Shown piece after piece: positions 26,204 through 43,349 of a stretch of DNA of 43,722 nt. Below the pieces are notes generated by a model, which saw only the letters and a program-made list of their open reading frames with translations, did not search any database and was not told where the DNA came from. Source of the stretch: Clostridia bacterium (lineage in GTDB: Bacteria > Bacillota > Clostridia > Oscillospirales > CAG-272); assembly GCA_017471825.1 (NCBI GenBank), contig JAFURQ010000031.1:1-43722 (forward strand), read 5' to 3'. Positions within the stretch are counted from its first letter, which is position 1. The number at the start of each line of letters is the position of its first letter. A program made the translations under genes and the position numbers.

Positions 26204-27652
26204 TTATTCTTCGCCTGTATATCCCCAAACGACAGGGCAGTCCCAATAGTTCCATTTGGAATCCCATCCAGAAGGCTTGCTTGTAGCTTCGCAATAGATA
26301 GTAAGGCTTGTGCAACCTTTGAACGCACTATAACCAATACTCGTTACGCTATCAGGGATAGTTATGCTTGTGAGGCTTGTGCAATTTTTGAACGCATAAT
26401 TACCAATACTTGTTACACTATTGGGGATTGTTACACTCGTAAGGCTTGTGCAATCACAGAACGCAGAACCACTAATGCTTGTTACACTATCAGGGATAAT
26501 TATGATCGTAAGACTTGTGCATCCTTCAAATACACTAGTATTGATACGCTTCAATTTGCTGTTTTTTCCAAACTTTACTCCTGTAAGACTCGAACAACCA
26601 TAGAACGCGCTATCACCGATAATATTAACGTTATCTGGGATAGTAATATCTACAATATTCGAGCAATTCAGAAAAGCCTGCCATCCGATATATGAAACAC
26701 CTTCCGGAATTATTATGCTAGTAAGGTTTGTGCAACCTCGAAATGCCGTATTACTGATGCTTGTTACGCCATCAGGTATTTCGAAGCTTGTTGCTGTTTT
26801 TCCTATGGCATATTGTACAAGAGCTTTTCCGCTCTTAGAATAAAGATTTCCGTCAATATCTTTATATGATGTATTGCTTGCGTCAACCGTTATTTGAGTA
26901 AGGCTTGAACAATTAGAGAACGCCCAATAGCCTATGCTTGTTACACTGCCCGGTATAGTTATGCTCCTAAGGTTTGTACAATCGAGAAGCGCCACCTCGC
27001 CTATGCTCGTTACGCTATCCGGGATTTCAAAGCTTGTTGCTGTTTTGCCTTTAGCATATCCTATAAGAATAGTTTCGTCTTTGGAATAAAGATTTCCATC
27101 TATATCTTTATATGCCGCATTGTTTGAATCAACATTTATTTGAGCAAGGCTGAAGCAATCATCAAATGCACGAATATCGAGATCTGTTACGCTGTCTGGA
27201 ATAGTTATGCTCGCGAGGCTCGTACAACCCTTAAATGCGTACTCACCAATGCTTGCTACGCTACTTCCTATAGTCACGCTAATAAGGTTTGTACACCCTT
27301 GGAATGCAGAATGGTGAATGCTCGTTACACTATCGGGGATTGTTACGCTTGTAAGTGTTGTGCAATCTTCAAATGCCTCAGAACTGATCGCCATTACAGG
27401 CAAATCGTTGTAGCTTGAGGGAATTACAATATCGGTGTCGGTGCAGGCCCCTATACCGACAACCACACAATATGTTCCACCGCTCCGCGATTGAAATTTC
27501 AGTCCCTCACTATATTGAGAATTAGGAGTTTCCACCGTTGGTTCATCTCCGTTGTCGCCGTTATCGCCATTGCCGCCGTTGCAGGATATGAGGGCGAGGC
27601 AGAGGGTAAGGCAGAGTGCGAGAGTGATAAAAAGCTTTAGGTTCTTTTTCAT
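26204..27652 (-). CDS. BspA-type leucine-rich-repeat lipoprotein (leader copy B)
   Basis: 482 residues from the ATG before KKNLKLF; an in-frame start at 27709 lies within the leader. Lipobox LISC with Cys at 24, a short Gly/Asn/Asp-rich linker, then tandem LRR_5 repeats built on LTSVTIPDSVTSIGxxAF units over ~75-450. Two YKDIDGNLYSK inserts interrupt the repeats. It ends in the module PSGWDxxWNYxxCPVVW shared with the paralogue at 40343. Probably a cell-surface adhesin or ligand-binding protein. AAGGAG lies 11 nt before the ATG. Expression should pass the structured leader and terminator at 27681-27828. Confidence 0.88.
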   Translation of the reverse strand: MKKNLKLFITLALCLTLCLALISCNGGNGDNGDNGDEPTVETPNSQYSEGLKFQSRSGGTYCVVVGIGACTDTDIVIPSSYNDLPVMAISSEAFEDCTTLTSVTIPDSVTSIHHSAFQGCTNLISVTIGSSVASIGEYAFKGCTSLASITIPDSVTDLDIRAFDDCFSLAQINVDSNNAAYKDIDGNLYSKDETILIGYAKGKTATSFEIPDSVTSIGEVALLDCTNLRSITIPGSVTSIGYWAFSNCSSLTQITVDASNTSYKDIDGNLYSKSGKALVQYAIGKTATSFEIPDGVTSISNTAFRGCTNLTSIIIPEGVSYIGWQAFLNCSNIVDITIPDNVNIIGDSAFYGCSSLTGVKFGKNSKLKRINTSVFEGCTSLTIIIIPDSVTSISGSAFCDCTSLTSVTIPNSVTSIGNYAFKNCTSLTSITIPDSVTSIGYSAFKGCTSLTIYCEATSKPSGWDSKWNYWDCPVVWGYTGEE

Positions 27653-27680: not shown

Positions 27681-27828
27681 AAAAAAGTGCGCCCGCAAAG
27701 CGAGCGCACTCCATCAAGTACTTCACTTTGCCGCGACGCAACTTTTTACACACAAGGTATAGAAAAAGACGGAAGTACTAAAATGGCATAGTACACCCTT
27801 GTGTGTAAAATATTAAGTTACGTCGCAA
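27681..27828 (-). ncRNA. Structured leader RNA, copy B (candidate cis-regulatory RNA)
   Basis: Predicted transcription starts near 27827. P1: 27826-27815 pairs with 27744-27733 (12 bp). P2: 27810-27797 pairs with 27757-27744 (14 bp; base 27744 can join only one helix). The loop contains CCATTTTAGTACTTC (27786-27772), which can pair with GAAGTACTTGATGG (27724-27711). An intrinsic terminator follows at 27710-27681 (10-bp stem, T6). P1 and P2 differ in sequence from copy A but keep pairing, while loop and terminator are nearly identical. Structure is inferred by eye. Confidence 0.7.
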
Positions 27829-27832
27829 CTCC

Positions 27833-27861
27833 ATTTTAGCACTTTGTGGGGAGATTGTCAA
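27833..27861 (-). promoter_or_regulatory. Promoter of leader copy B
   Basis: On the minus strand, -35 TTGACA (27861-27856), a 17-bp spacer and -10 TAAAAT (27838-27833). Confidence 0.82.
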
Positions 27862-40132: not shown

Positions 40133-40161
40133 TTTACTTTTATAATAAATTGTGGTAAAAT
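40133..40161 (+). promoter_or_regulatory. Promoter of leader copy A
   Basis: -35 TTTACT (40133-40138), a 17-bp spacer and -10 TAAAAT (40156-40161). Predicted start is about 40167, at the first base pairs of P1. Confidence 0.72.
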
Positions 40162-40316
40162 AAAGCTGCGACGTAAAACCGAATATTTTTCACAAGAAGG
40201 GTGTACTATACCATTTTAGTACTTCCTGCCTTTTCATATCTTCTTGTGAAAGGTTTTGCGTCGCGGCAAAGTGAAGTGCTTAATGGAGTGCGCTCGCTTT
40301 GCGGGCGCACTTTTTT
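40162..40316 (+). ncRNA. Structured leader RNA, copy A (candidate cis-regulatory RNA)
   Basis: P1: 40168-40180 pairs with 40252-40264 (13 bp incl. one G-U). P2: 40188-40199 pairs with 40240-40251 (12 bp). The apical loop has GTACTA (40203-40208) and TAGTAC (40217-40222), which can form a small hairpin. It also has CCATTTTAGTACTTC (40211-40225), complementary over 13 pairs to GAAGTGCTTAATGG (40273-40286). The terminator is at 40288-40316: 10-bp stem, TTT loop, T6. The lipoprotein ATG is 27 nt later. Not recognised as a named RNA family; fold is by eye. Confidence 0.72.
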
Positions 40317-40342
40317 ATTTCATTCATAAAAGGAGAAGACTA

Positions 40343-42703
40343 ATGAAAACAAGCTTAAAGCTTTTTATCACTCTCGCGCTCTGCCTCACCCTCTGCCACG
40401 CCCTCATATCCTGTAACGGCGGCAATGGCGATAATGGCGACACGCCCACAGTGGAAAACGGAGATAATCCCACCGTGGAAACTCCTAATTTTCAATACAG
40501 CCAAGGATTAGAGTTTAAATTAAATTCAGATAGCACCGCTTACATATTGGTTGGAATAGGCGATTGCACGGATACTGATATTGTAATCCCTTCAATTTAC
40601 AATAATTTGCCCGTAACAATTATAGCTGCTGAAGCGTTCAGAGGTTGCAACAACCTTACGAGCGTAACTATTTCAGATAATGTAGAGAACATTCGTGGTT
40701 ATGCCTTCGCTGATTGTTATCTTCTTACAAGCGTAACTATTCCTGACAGCGTAACGAGCATATCTAAATCGGCATTCTATAATTGCACAAGCCTTAAGTA
40801 TAACGAATATGATAACGCGTATTACCTCGGCAACAATAACACCCCATACATCGCTTTTATAAAAGCGAAAGATACCTCTGCTATATGTATACATAACGAT
40901 ACGAAAGTAATATGCGATTATGCGTTCGGAGATTGCACGAATCTTACAAGCGTTACAATTGGTAGAAATGTAACGAATATAGGTTACGGTACACTCGAAG
41001 ATTGCGCAAGCCTTGCACATATAATCGTTGATGTCAACAATGCAACATATAAGGACATAGATGGCAATCTTTATACAAAGGATGAAAAAACTCTCGTAAA
41101 GTATGCTAATGGAAAAACAGAAATAAGCTTTGCAATCCCTGACGGTGTGACGAGTATAAGTGATGGTGCATTCGAAAATTGCACAAGCCTTACGAACATG
41201 AGCATTCCGAATAGCATAACAGAAATAGGTTATTACGCATTCAAAGGTTGCACAAGCCTTACAAAAATTTATATTTCCAACATAGCCAATTGGTGCAAAA
41301 TATCGTTCGGTGATAGTTATGCAAATCCTCTTTGTTATGCAAATCACATTTATATCAACGGTCAACTTATAACCGAACTTGTAATTCCAAGTGGTATTGT
41401 TAATCGTTATGCATTCTATAATTGCACAAGCCTTAGGAGTGTGACAATTGGCGACGGTGTAACGAGCATAGAATATAGCGCGTTTGAAGATTGCACCAAC
41501 CTTACGAGTGTTACTATTCCTGATAGCGTAACGCGCATTAGCTCTAATGCGTTCGACGGTTGCACAAGCTTACGATATAACGAATACGATAACGCTTATT
41601 ATCTTGGCAATAAAAACAATCCTTATGTAGTTCTTGCCAAAGCAAAAAACGAACACATCGTCTCTTGCAATATAAATGAAAATACTAAGATTATTGCACC
41701 TAATGCATTTGAATATTGCACAACAATTACAAGCATAACTATCCCTGACAGCGTAACAAGCATTGGCAATAGTGCGTTCTGTTTTTGCTATGGCCTAACA
41801 AGCGTGACAATTGGCAAGGGTGTAACAAGCCTTGGCGATAATACGTTTGCTGATTGCAGAGGTCTTAGACAAATAACTGTTAATGCATACAACGCAATAT
41901 ATAGGGACATAGATGGAAATCTTTATACGAAATACGGAGAAACTTTAATACAATATGCTCGTGGAAAAACAGAGACAAACTTTGTAATTCCAGATGATGT
42001 AATGAGCATAGGTTATAGAGCATTCGACAACTGCACAAACCTTGAGAGCATAACCATTCCCGATAGTGTAACGGTTATTGATTGGTATGCTTTCTCCGGC
42101 TGCACAAGTCTTGCGAGTATAACAATCCCGAATAGCGTAACCGGCATTGGTATTGCCGCGTTCTCTGGTTGTTCAAGCCTTGTTATCTATTGTGAAGCCA
42201 CAAGCGAGCCTTCTGGATGGGATCCGAATTGGAACTATTGGGACTGCCCTGTCGTTTGGGATTGCAATAAAAATGTCGTAACAGATGACGGATATATTTA
42301 CACTGTAGTAGACGGTATAAGATACGGCATCAAAAACGGAGTTGCTACTGTTATGGAACAATCTACAAATATTACAGAAGCAAATATCAAATCAAGCATT
42401 GTATATAAGTCAAATGCTTACAGCGTAACGTTCATTGACGAATATGCTTTCTCTGGTTGCAGAAGCCTTACGAGTATAACTATCCCCGATGGCGTAATAA
42501 TCATTGACGAATATGCGTTCTCCGGTTGCGACAACCTTACGAGCGCAACTATTCCAGATAGTGTAACTGTAATTGGCAAATATGCGTTCTACGGTTGTTA
42601 CAATCTTACAATCTATTGCGAGGACGCAAGCAAGCCTTCGGGATGGGATTCGGATTGGAATTATTCAAATTGCCCTGTCGTTTGGGACTGTAAAAATCAA
42701 TAA
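40343..42703 (+). CDS. BspA-type leucine-rich-repeat lipoprotein (leader copy A)
   Basis: 786 residues from the ATG before KTSLKLF, with AAAGGAG 8 nt upstream. A longer in-frame start lies in the leader terminator. Lipobox LISC (Cys ~24), a Gly/Asn/Asp linker with repeated PTVEN, then many LRR_5 repeats (LTSVTIPDSVTSIxxxAF). Inserts YNEYDNAYYLGN and YKDIDGNLYTK each occur twice. The PSGWDxxWNYxxCPVVW end module occurs at ~620-640 and again at the C-terminus, with a DDGYIYTVVDGIRYGI segment between. It therefore looks like the 26204 paralogue plus an extra tail. Likely a surface binding protein. Confidence 0.88.
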   Translation: MKTSLKLFITLALCLTLCHALISCNGGNGDNGDTPTVENGDNPTVETPNFQYSQGLEFKLNSDSTAYILVGIGDCTDTDIVIPSIYNNLPVTIIAAEAFRGCNNLTSVTISDNVENIRGYAFADCYLLTSVTIPDSVTSISKSAFYNCTSLKYNEYDNAYYLGNNNTPYIAFIKAKDTSAICIHNDTKVICDYAFGDCTNLTSVTIGRNVTNIGYGTLEDCASLAHIIVDVNNATYKDIDGNLYTKDEKTLVKYANGKTEISFAIPDGVTSISDGAFENCTSLTNMSIPNSITEIGYYAFKGCTSLTKIYISNIANWCKISFGDSYANPLCYANHIYINGQLITELVIPSGIVNRYAFYNCTSLRSVTIGDGVTSIEYSAFEDCTNLTSVTIPDSVTRISSNAFDGCTSLRYNEYDNAYYLGNKNNPYVVLAKAKNEHIVSCNINENTKIIAPNAFEYCTTITSITIPDSVTSIGNSAFCFCYGLTSVTIGKGVTSLGDNTFADCRGLRQITVNAYNAIYRDIDGNLYTKYGETLIQYARGKTETNFVIPDDVMSIGYRAFDNCTNLESITIPDSVTVIDWYAFSGCTSLASITIPNSVTGIGIAAFSGCSSLVIYCEATSEPSGWDPNWNYWDCPVVWDCNKNVVTDDGYIYTVVDGIRYGIKNGVATVMEQSTNITEANIKSSIVYKSNAYSVTFIDEYAFSGCRSLTSITIPDGVIIIDEYAFSGCDNLTSATIPDSVTVIGKYAFYGCYNLTIYCEDASKPSGWDSDWNYSNCPVVWDCKNQ

Positions 42704-42789: not shown

Positions 42790-43080
42790 AGGAAAGGAAA
42801 CAGCCTTTAATTAGCCGTTAGTCTTGAGCGAGTTCTCGTAGGACTCGACCATTTTCTCGGAAGAATATAAGTGCAAATTAATTGTCCGAAGGATGCGAAG
42901 CAGTTGTTGAATCGAGAATTTGTTCGTAGACGAGGAAGGGTTTGCAGATAATACAAAAGTATTGTCAAAAAACATGACGAAGAATACGGGCAAATTATCA
43001 GTCAAGAACCAATATTGTTTGCACTTATATTCGACGTATCTGACCGCCAACAGAACCGGTCCGCTTGACAGCGAAGGATA
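42790..43080 (-). pseudogene. Decayed copy of the spore-protein gene, interrupted by an insertion
   Basis: Bases 42790-42840 are identical to 43140-43190, covering the 3' flank and last codons of the intact gene (ESYENSLKTNG). Similarity continues to about 42850 and resumes at 43038-43057 (20 identical bases), then fades near 43075. The N-terminal half is missing and a 170-bp element sits in between. A 79-codon frame runs through the insert (43050-42811) but is probably not a functional protein. Confidence 0.8.
42863..43032. mobile_element. MITE-like insertion with 15-bp terminal inverted repeats
   Basis: GAATATAAGTGCAAA (42863-42877) and its exact reverse complement (43018-43032) bound a 170-bp segment with no transposase gene. 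It lies where the spore-protein copy is interrupted. No clear target-site duplication: left flank CTCGGAA, right flank GACGTA. Confidence 0.6.
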
Positions 43081-43160: not shown

Positions 43161-43349
43161 TTAGCCGTTAGTCTTGAGCGAGTTCTCGTAAGACTCAACC
43201 ATCTTTTTAACCATCTGACCGCCAACAGAACCAGCCTGCTTAGAGGTAAGGTCACCGTTGTAGCCCTGCTTAAGGTTTACGCCAACTTCGCTTGCAGCCT
43301 GCATTTTAAAGTTTTCGAGAGCTGCCTTCTTTTCGTTATTCTTAGCCAT
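43161..43349 (-). CDS. Small acid-soluble spore protein, alpha/beta type
   Basis: 62 residues, typical length. Helix 1 ends in ASEVGVNLKQGYNGDLTSKQAG and the second signature SVGGQMVKKMVESYE follows, both family hallmarks. These proteins coat and protect spore DNA and are degraded on germination. At the usual GPR protease site (K-x-E-I-A-x-E) this protein reads K-M-Q-A-A-S-E, so the key Glu is Gln. AGGAG lies 9 nt before the ATG. A forespore sigma-G promoter was not identified with confidence. A GAGCCGCAG/CTGCGGCTC hairpin sits at 43389-43417 upstream. Confidence 0.92.
   Translation of the reverse strand: MAKNNEKKAALENFKMQAASEVGVNLKQGYNGDLTSKQAGSVGGQMVKKMVESYENSLKTNG

Follow-up and report, generated by a model that had tools for sequence, protein, structure and literature searches.

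A structured leader RNA family in Clostridia with a predicted pseudoknot/antiterminator switch

What kind of RNA lies between a promoter and a surface-protein gene in a Clostridia bacterium, how might it control that gene, and does it belong to a class already named? The question is raised by the leader RNA called here copy A, a stretch of 155 bases at 40162-40316 located 5' of such a gene. The window, i.e. the whole stretch of DNA analysed, comprises 43,722 nucleotides from a Clostridia bacterium. The segment 40162-40325 has a fold energy of -74.7 kcal/mol, compared with -37.4 +/- 3.5 kcal/mol for shuffled sequences (z = -10.75). An initial annotation had described a two-helix stem (P1 and P2), a loop hairpin, a pairing between loop and tail, a terminator and promoter-like boxes, and all these parts are found where it had placed them. 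The features of copy A are as follows.

40133-40161, plus strand: promoter-like boxes TTTACT and TAAAAT, 17 nt apart (sequence and family statistics)
40165-40180, plus strand: 5' strand of P1, pairing with 40252-40267 over 16 bp (fold and covariation)
40181-40187, plus strand: hinge bulge GAATATT, 7 nt, between P1 and P2; its AAUA belongs to the family consensus
40188-40199, plus strand: 5' strand of P2, pairing with 40240-40251 over 12 bp (pairing kept, sequence free)
40203-40222, plus strand: P3, a local hairpin in the apical loop, GTACTA...TAGTAC (fold and covariation)
40211-40229, plus strand: loop strand, pseudoknot partner of R (duplex energy, covariation, permutation test)
40266-40286, plus strand: R, the switch strand, forming the pseudoknot with the loop or, through 40266-40279, the antiterminator with the terminator 5' arm
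40285-40316, plus strand: intrinsic terminator hairpin and U tract (sequence)
40290-40302, plus strand: terminator 5' arm and loop, antiterminator partner of R (13 bp, duplex energy -20.0 kcal/mol)
40330-40335, plus strand: ribosome-binding site AAGGAG (sequence)
40343-42703, plus strand: gene for a 786-aa lipoprotein carrying BspA-type leucine-rich repeats (LRR_5), behind copy A

The -10-like box (TAAAAT, 40156-40161) adjoins copy A, ending one base before the element, so that transcription is expected to start at the base of P1. The promoter assigned to the foot of the two-helix stem is thus present as boxes in the sequence, with a predicted start site. The apical loop had been credited with two alternatives, a local hairpin or a downstream pairing of 13 bp; both are found, the second being longer than thought (40211-40229 with 40266-40286, 17 bp interrupted by small gaps, with a duplex energy of -17.1 kcal/mol that disregards pseudoknot topology). 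The terminator does lie close before the start codon, the ATG at 40343 standing 26 nt past it and not 27 nt as first given.

The window also contains repeats of another kind. A 62-aa ORF on the minus strand (43161-43349), which we take to resemble a small acid-soluble spore protein, has its 3' end repeated at 42790-42855, 350 nt away, with 95% identity. Positions 46-107, overlapping the end of a tRNA-Arg gene, recur at 231-292, 185 nt further on, with 94% identity.

Copy A is accompanied in the window by a second copy, B, whose existence is confirmed.

27681-27832, minus strand: copy B of the element, with an antiterminator of 15 bp (-20.7 kcal/mol) and a pseudoknot of 19 bp (-17.6 kcal/mol), both as duplexes
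27833-27861, minus strand: promoter-like boxes of copy B, TTGACA-17-TAAAAT
26204-27652, minus strand: gene for an LRR_5 lipoprotein of 482 aa, downstream of copy B

The genome carries five copies, three beyond the two first noticed: A, B, C, D and a fifth on contig 32 (L205, G000:C32:2055-2269), which has a long apical-loop insertion. L205 and the locus L073 represent a variant with such an insertion in which R, hinge and terminator are retained. LRR_5 matches occur on about 14 ORFs of this genome, three of which are preceded by the element. The LRR gene behind copy C (L002, G000:C1:157838-158059) is short (162 aa), with a TAA within the LRR match, and may be truncated.

The absence of a name for this RNA, as first proposed, is upheld by the searches made. 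In Rfam release 15, no family reached its gathering score at any element tested, namely those in the window plus 40 loci elsewhere, covering several loop types. At a permissive threshold the best sub-threshold match over copy A scored 28.4 bits against a cut-off of 228.9, and such matches were taken as chance. A preQ1 covariance model gave no match at the elements tested. No account of the element appeared in the literature searched, which consisted of titles and abstract openings with few subscription journals, and a word search for element-related terms gave no match in PMC8632094.

The distribution of the element was followed with two covariance models, R1 built from four copies and R2 from 56 matches within the genus. 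R1 matched 46/69 genus genomes (E <= 0.01), 36 of them at 1e-6 or better, including the false positive G040; this genome was rejected on reading despite an R1 E-value of 3e-7, so that R1 E-values near 1e-7 are no proof. In samples of genomes that overlap, R2 matched 175/295 family genomes (E <= 0.001; 162 at 1e-6 or better), 94/295 order genomes (E <= 1e-4; 88 at 1e-6 or better) and 76/291 class genomes (E <= 1e-4; 71 at 1e-6 or better). In the phylum sample (249 genomes, R2, 1e-4) the genome of origin alone matched, with no match in the 248 others, from which false R2 matches appear rare at 1e-4 and the element family seems confined to the class Clostridia. Antisense matches with E-values of 5e-5 to 7e-4 were seen on true loci, which calls for caution with weak covariance-model matches. 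Among the candidates scored, up to at least 10 matches occur in one genome.

A pattern scan of named genomes returned 32 stretches, every one from metagenome-assembled Clostridia, Clostridiales or Oscillospiraceae, and the host animal, where given in the title, is a ruminant. In IMG/VR, ten contigs filed as viral (L212-L221) carry the element, all 10/10 matched by R2, with lipoprotein-like and other ORFs downstream. The type-1 loop pattern is absent from the viral contigs scanned, the phage sequences scanned gave one partial match, and the element was not found in the plasmid sequences scanned.

For comparative analysis, 60 rows from the genus were read, and G040 (false positive), G037 (long apical insertion, later recognised as a real variant) and G005c (degenerate) were dropped. 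From 86 later rows, eight antisense matches and L037 were dropped. The total set holds 138 elements, reduced to 92 non-redundant ones and to 91 after removal of G005b, in which the terminator was not detected; its loci from outside the genus are the best-scoring ones and not a random sample.

The consensus of 78 sense matches reads UGCnACACAA, hinge AAUA, free P2, P3 loop, pyrimidine-rich linker, UUGUGUnGCAaCAAU, R and terminator. ACACAA/UUGUGU in P1 is near-invariant, and both the unpaired AAUA hinge and the linker are conserved. P1 and P2 have median lengths of 14 bp each and the apical loop measures 33-50 nt (81/91 elements parsed). Loops fall into several types with unlike sequences: that of the window has GUACUA/UAGUAC, one with GGUAAAAAGUG is common in other genera, and there are further ones. 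The idea of a fold-back, with P1 and P2 lengths matched element by element, was not supported (rho -0.13, p 0.25, 81/91 parsed).

In P1, P2, P3 and the pseudoknot, sequences vary while pairing stays, and compensatory changes among homologues are found in P1, P3 and the pseudoknot. P1 arms pair better with their own partner than with those of other members (-19.9 vs -12.7 kcal/mol, with 0/5000 permutations as good, n=91). For P2 the values are -18.0 vs -4.4 kcal/mol (0/5000, n=88), although P2 arms were defined from each element's own fold, which favours the own value by construction. The outcomes that the initial annotation had set against its own reading, namely an Rfam match or homologues devoid of compensatory changes, are not what the searches returned: many genomes matched, the changes are there in three of the pairings, and Rfam offers no family for the elements tested.

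Covariation in fixed columns was examined on 44 type-2 and 30 type-1 sequences, picked by loop type, against 500 shuffles, kinship among sequences inflating all shuffle tests. In P1, 93% (type-2) and 92% (type-1) of cells are paired and the covariation score exceeds all 500 shuffles. In the pseudoknot the figures are 88% and 87% (0/500 shuffles as good in each type), in P3 87% (type-2, 0/500) and 96% (type-1, 1/500), and in the antiterminator 76% (type-2, 4/500) and 89% (type-1, 0/500). Support is therefore best for P1 and the pseudoknot, followed by P3, and weaker for the antiterminator. Pairs changed on both sides are not above shuffles in the antiterminator (244/500 for type-2, 306/500 for type-1), in the type-1 pseudoknot (423/500) and in type-1 P1 (87/500). 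Changes linking R to the terminator arm are visible by eye in the alignment (GAG/CUU, CAG/CUG, CGG/CCG).

R, the strand directly 3' of P1, pairs with the loop strand although both vary between loop types. In the 91 non-redundant elements, R binds its own loop better than the loops of other members (-18.8 vs -14.3 kcal/mol) and its own terminator arm better than the arms of other members (-13.5 vs -9.5 kcal/mol), with 0/5000 permutations as good in each case; since R belongs to both helices, the pseudoknot and antiterminator tests are not independent. At least 4 bases of R are common to the two pairings in 91/91 elements. When the 3' arm of the terminator is left out, minimum free energy folding places R on the terminator arm with at least 5 pairs in 91/91 elements and at least 8 in 89/91. 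In controls, at least 8 pairs form in 71% of swapped and 35% of shuffled cases, and at least 5 in 88% of swapped cases; swapped partners thus often pair too, and the R:arm signal is one of strength and not of presence. With the whole terminator present, at least 5 R:arm pairs are retained in 57/91. Support for the antiterminator is weaker than for the pseudoknot, several copies having z near or above 0. For its part, the pairing of R with the loop must span a stem of about 28 bp and requires a sharp bend at the hinge.

The setting of the element is that of an attenuator, with promoter, leader, intrinsic terminator and gene in this order. Promoter-like boxes (<= 3 mismatches to TTGACA-N16-18-TATAAT) precede 130/137 elements with enough upstream sequence, compared with 25/621 control windows, and 114/130 have the -10 box directly adjoining the element. 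A terminator is present in 91/92 non-redundant elements. A start codon with a Shine-Dalgarno (SD)-like site follows within 120 nt in 120/138, at a median of 21 nt past the element end; among the 18/138 lacking one, two stand upstream in a tandem array, and for two no more than 162 nt of sequence remain. In 95/138 cases the first 50 nt downstream contain the start of an ORF of at least 60 aa that has an SD-like site, vs 1/138 in the antisense-upstream control. Tandem units, two or three complete ones 39 to 149 nt apart, occur in at least 10 loci. At one locus (L133 1100-1664, G483 contig 48), three tandem units stand before one ORF.

The genes served are varied. Downstream ORFs outside the genome of origin numbered 116, or 108 once redundancy was removed, of which 99 were scanned with Pfam and PADLOC, nine short or doubtful ones being omitted. 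LRR_5 (BspA-type repeats) is matched by 26 of the 99 proteins and the Flg_new repeat by 5; other Pfam matches are scattered over zinc ribbons, AMP-binding enzymes, SLOG, SPFH, lipase and others. As to a link with defence systems, PADLOC matched 21 families, nearly all with one protein out of the 99. The description of the element as lying in front of a BspA-type gene is hence right for copy A and does not hold as a rule for the family. A Cys-rich protein of 55-68 aa (CCCDECDYFLLCFPEFD or near) recurs behind the element in several family genomes (L054, L055, L057, L106, L107 and others), and a single copy of it scanned alone had no Pfam match.

Taken together, the lack of an Rfam match, the compensatory changes and the gene directly downstream of most copies support the plan of a transcription-attenuating leader, as initially put forward. 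Alternative pairing as the means of attenuation stands, with the correction that the decisive alternative helix, the antiterminator between R and the terminator arm, was missing from that first account. A mutually exclusive antiterminator with covariation, as expected of an attenuator, is found by permutation (0/5000) and is weaker in fixed columns. These comparisons support the view that the element represents a real family of cis-acting attenuators with a putative pseudoknot/antiterminator switch, which nothing in Rfam matches.

The element is probably a cis-acting cassette of promoter plus attenuator, with an OFF state made of pseudoknot and terminator and an ON state made of the antiterminator. 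Helices, conservation, the overlapping pairings of R, and promoter and gene context come from comparing sequences; from them we infer a start site, an order of folding, a direction of control and the existence of a signal. RNA synthesis would start at the base of P1, and P1, hinge and P2 would fold first together with the P3 hairpin. Upon emerging, R could invade the P3 hairpin and form the pseudoknot by pairing to the apical loop. Once this has formed, R would be occupied, the terminator would fold and transcription would stop. Should the pseudoknot be slow or prevented, R would take the terminator 5' arm as soon as it is made, and polymerase would enter the gene. The balance may be set by a signal, which would most likely act by binding to the domain of P1, hinge and P3 loop.

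The nature of this signal admits several explanations. A small molecule is one possible answer, the element being in this case an orphan riboswitch with an aptamer formed by P1, hinge, P2 and P3 and responding to a signal of a general kind, for example a second messenger. The leader position, the terminator/antiterminator platform, the conserved unpaired hinge and linker, the near-invariant P1 motif and the tandem arrangement at the loci described above are in line with it; however, the quite different sequence types of the apical loop leave no single invariant binding core, and no pathway is common to the downstream genes. A protein that binds the RNA at P3 or P1, and so blocks or promotes the pseudoknot, is just as possible, P1 being conserved in sequence besides pairing, as expected of a protein site. 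The three known antitermination families tested do not fit, however: in 15 multi-copy genomes, a CAT_RBD (BglG/LicT) protein was found in 0/15 and an ANTAR protein in 5/15, the latter not in the genome of origin (89.8% complete), while a second NusG-family (LoaP-like) protein was found in none, with one match in 14/15 and zero in one 74%-complete genome.

It is rather unlikely that the element dispenses with a ligand and acts as a kinetic or physical switch, sensing temperature, magnesium or polymerase speed, or as a stochastic attenuator. The exchange of P3 for the pseudoknot is a strand displacement, the R:arm pairs kept in more than half of the elements beside the whole terminator point to states near balance, and a varied gene set suits a general signal, but a pure strand-exchange switch would not need a conserved hinge, linker and P1 sequence. 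Action in trans, whereby the loop of a released leader would pair with R of sister leaders in an RNA feedback, is improbable: copies A to D are nearly identical in loop and R, which would let a released leader pair with a sister transcript, but a separate antisense RNA was not seen in the genome of origin, where a search with the 15-base loop strand (<= 2 mismatches) gave six sites, those of A, B, C and D and two others, compared with eight for the reversed control. Finally, it is hardly credible that the element does no switching and is a plain repeat-bearing terminator or a mobile repeat, for although A and B precede paralogous genes whose first codons are conserved too, this view is contradicted by the compensatory changes, the class-wide spread, the fixed position of promoter and gene, and an R strand that fits two partners.

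Returning to the cis-acting attenuator, a broader interpretation can tentatively be proposed. The element may constitute a family of RNA switches spread across the class, which may have escaped notice because most of the bacteria carrying it are gut Clostridia not yet grown in culture. By RNA strand displacement, a single shared signal could act through this family to set varied accessory genes. These would include surface lipoproteins, SLOG proteins, small Cys-rich proteins and a few defence-like genes, with some copies on contigs filed as viral, and tandem units could in places serve as logic gates. A large structured-RNA family with a clear switching anatomy, present in about a quarter of the class genomes sampled, is of interest on several grounds. 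The signal, once found, would reveal what gut Clostridia sense when turning on surface and accessory genes. In addition, the family would offer a long strand-displacement switch of natural origin, whose loops come in several types of distinct sequence, for use in studies of co-transcriptional folding.

Comparison with known systems helps to situate the element. Leader-peptide attenuators, which depend on the ribosome, differ from it by their conserved short ORF with an SD sequence: SD, start codon and 6 codons occur in 21/91 elements, and no conserved leader peptide was seen, none being shared among 12 elements inspected. T-box leaders share with it the choice between terminator and antiterminator, and the GGGUGGUAC string of one loop subtype presumably resembles a T-box sequence, but other loop types are without GGGUGGUAC and no Rfam T-box match was found at the elements tested. 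In pseudoknot riboswitches that have a terminator platform, such as those for ZTP (pfl) and fluoride, a pseudoknot near the terminator decides on read-through; the element is set apart from ZTP and fluoride riboswitches by the lack of an Rfam match at the elements tested.

Orphan leaders with terminators have also been found by covariation in a genome-wide search for riboswitch and leader candidates (PMC11109978), to which the element is akin; the part of this source consulted contains no motif of the same plan, and the words lipoprotein, leucine-rich and oscillospir are absent from its main text. The closest parallel is the preQ1-I riboswitch of the transcriptional type of B. subtilis, in which a hairpin loop pairs with the 3' tail in an H-type pseudoknot that favours the terminator, the tail bases otherwise forming part of the antiterminator (according to the part of PMC11625349 consulted). 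As in that riboswitch, the tail is unavailable for an antiterminator while it is paired with the loop in the pseudoknot, a likeness seen here at the level of pairing. Unlike preQ1-I, the element has a hinged stem of some 28 bp, an apical loop 33-50 nt long, P3 and several loop types; its switch helix measures 17 bp in copy A, and Rfam models do not match it. By analogy, the element would work like the preQ1-I riboswitch without being a member of that class.
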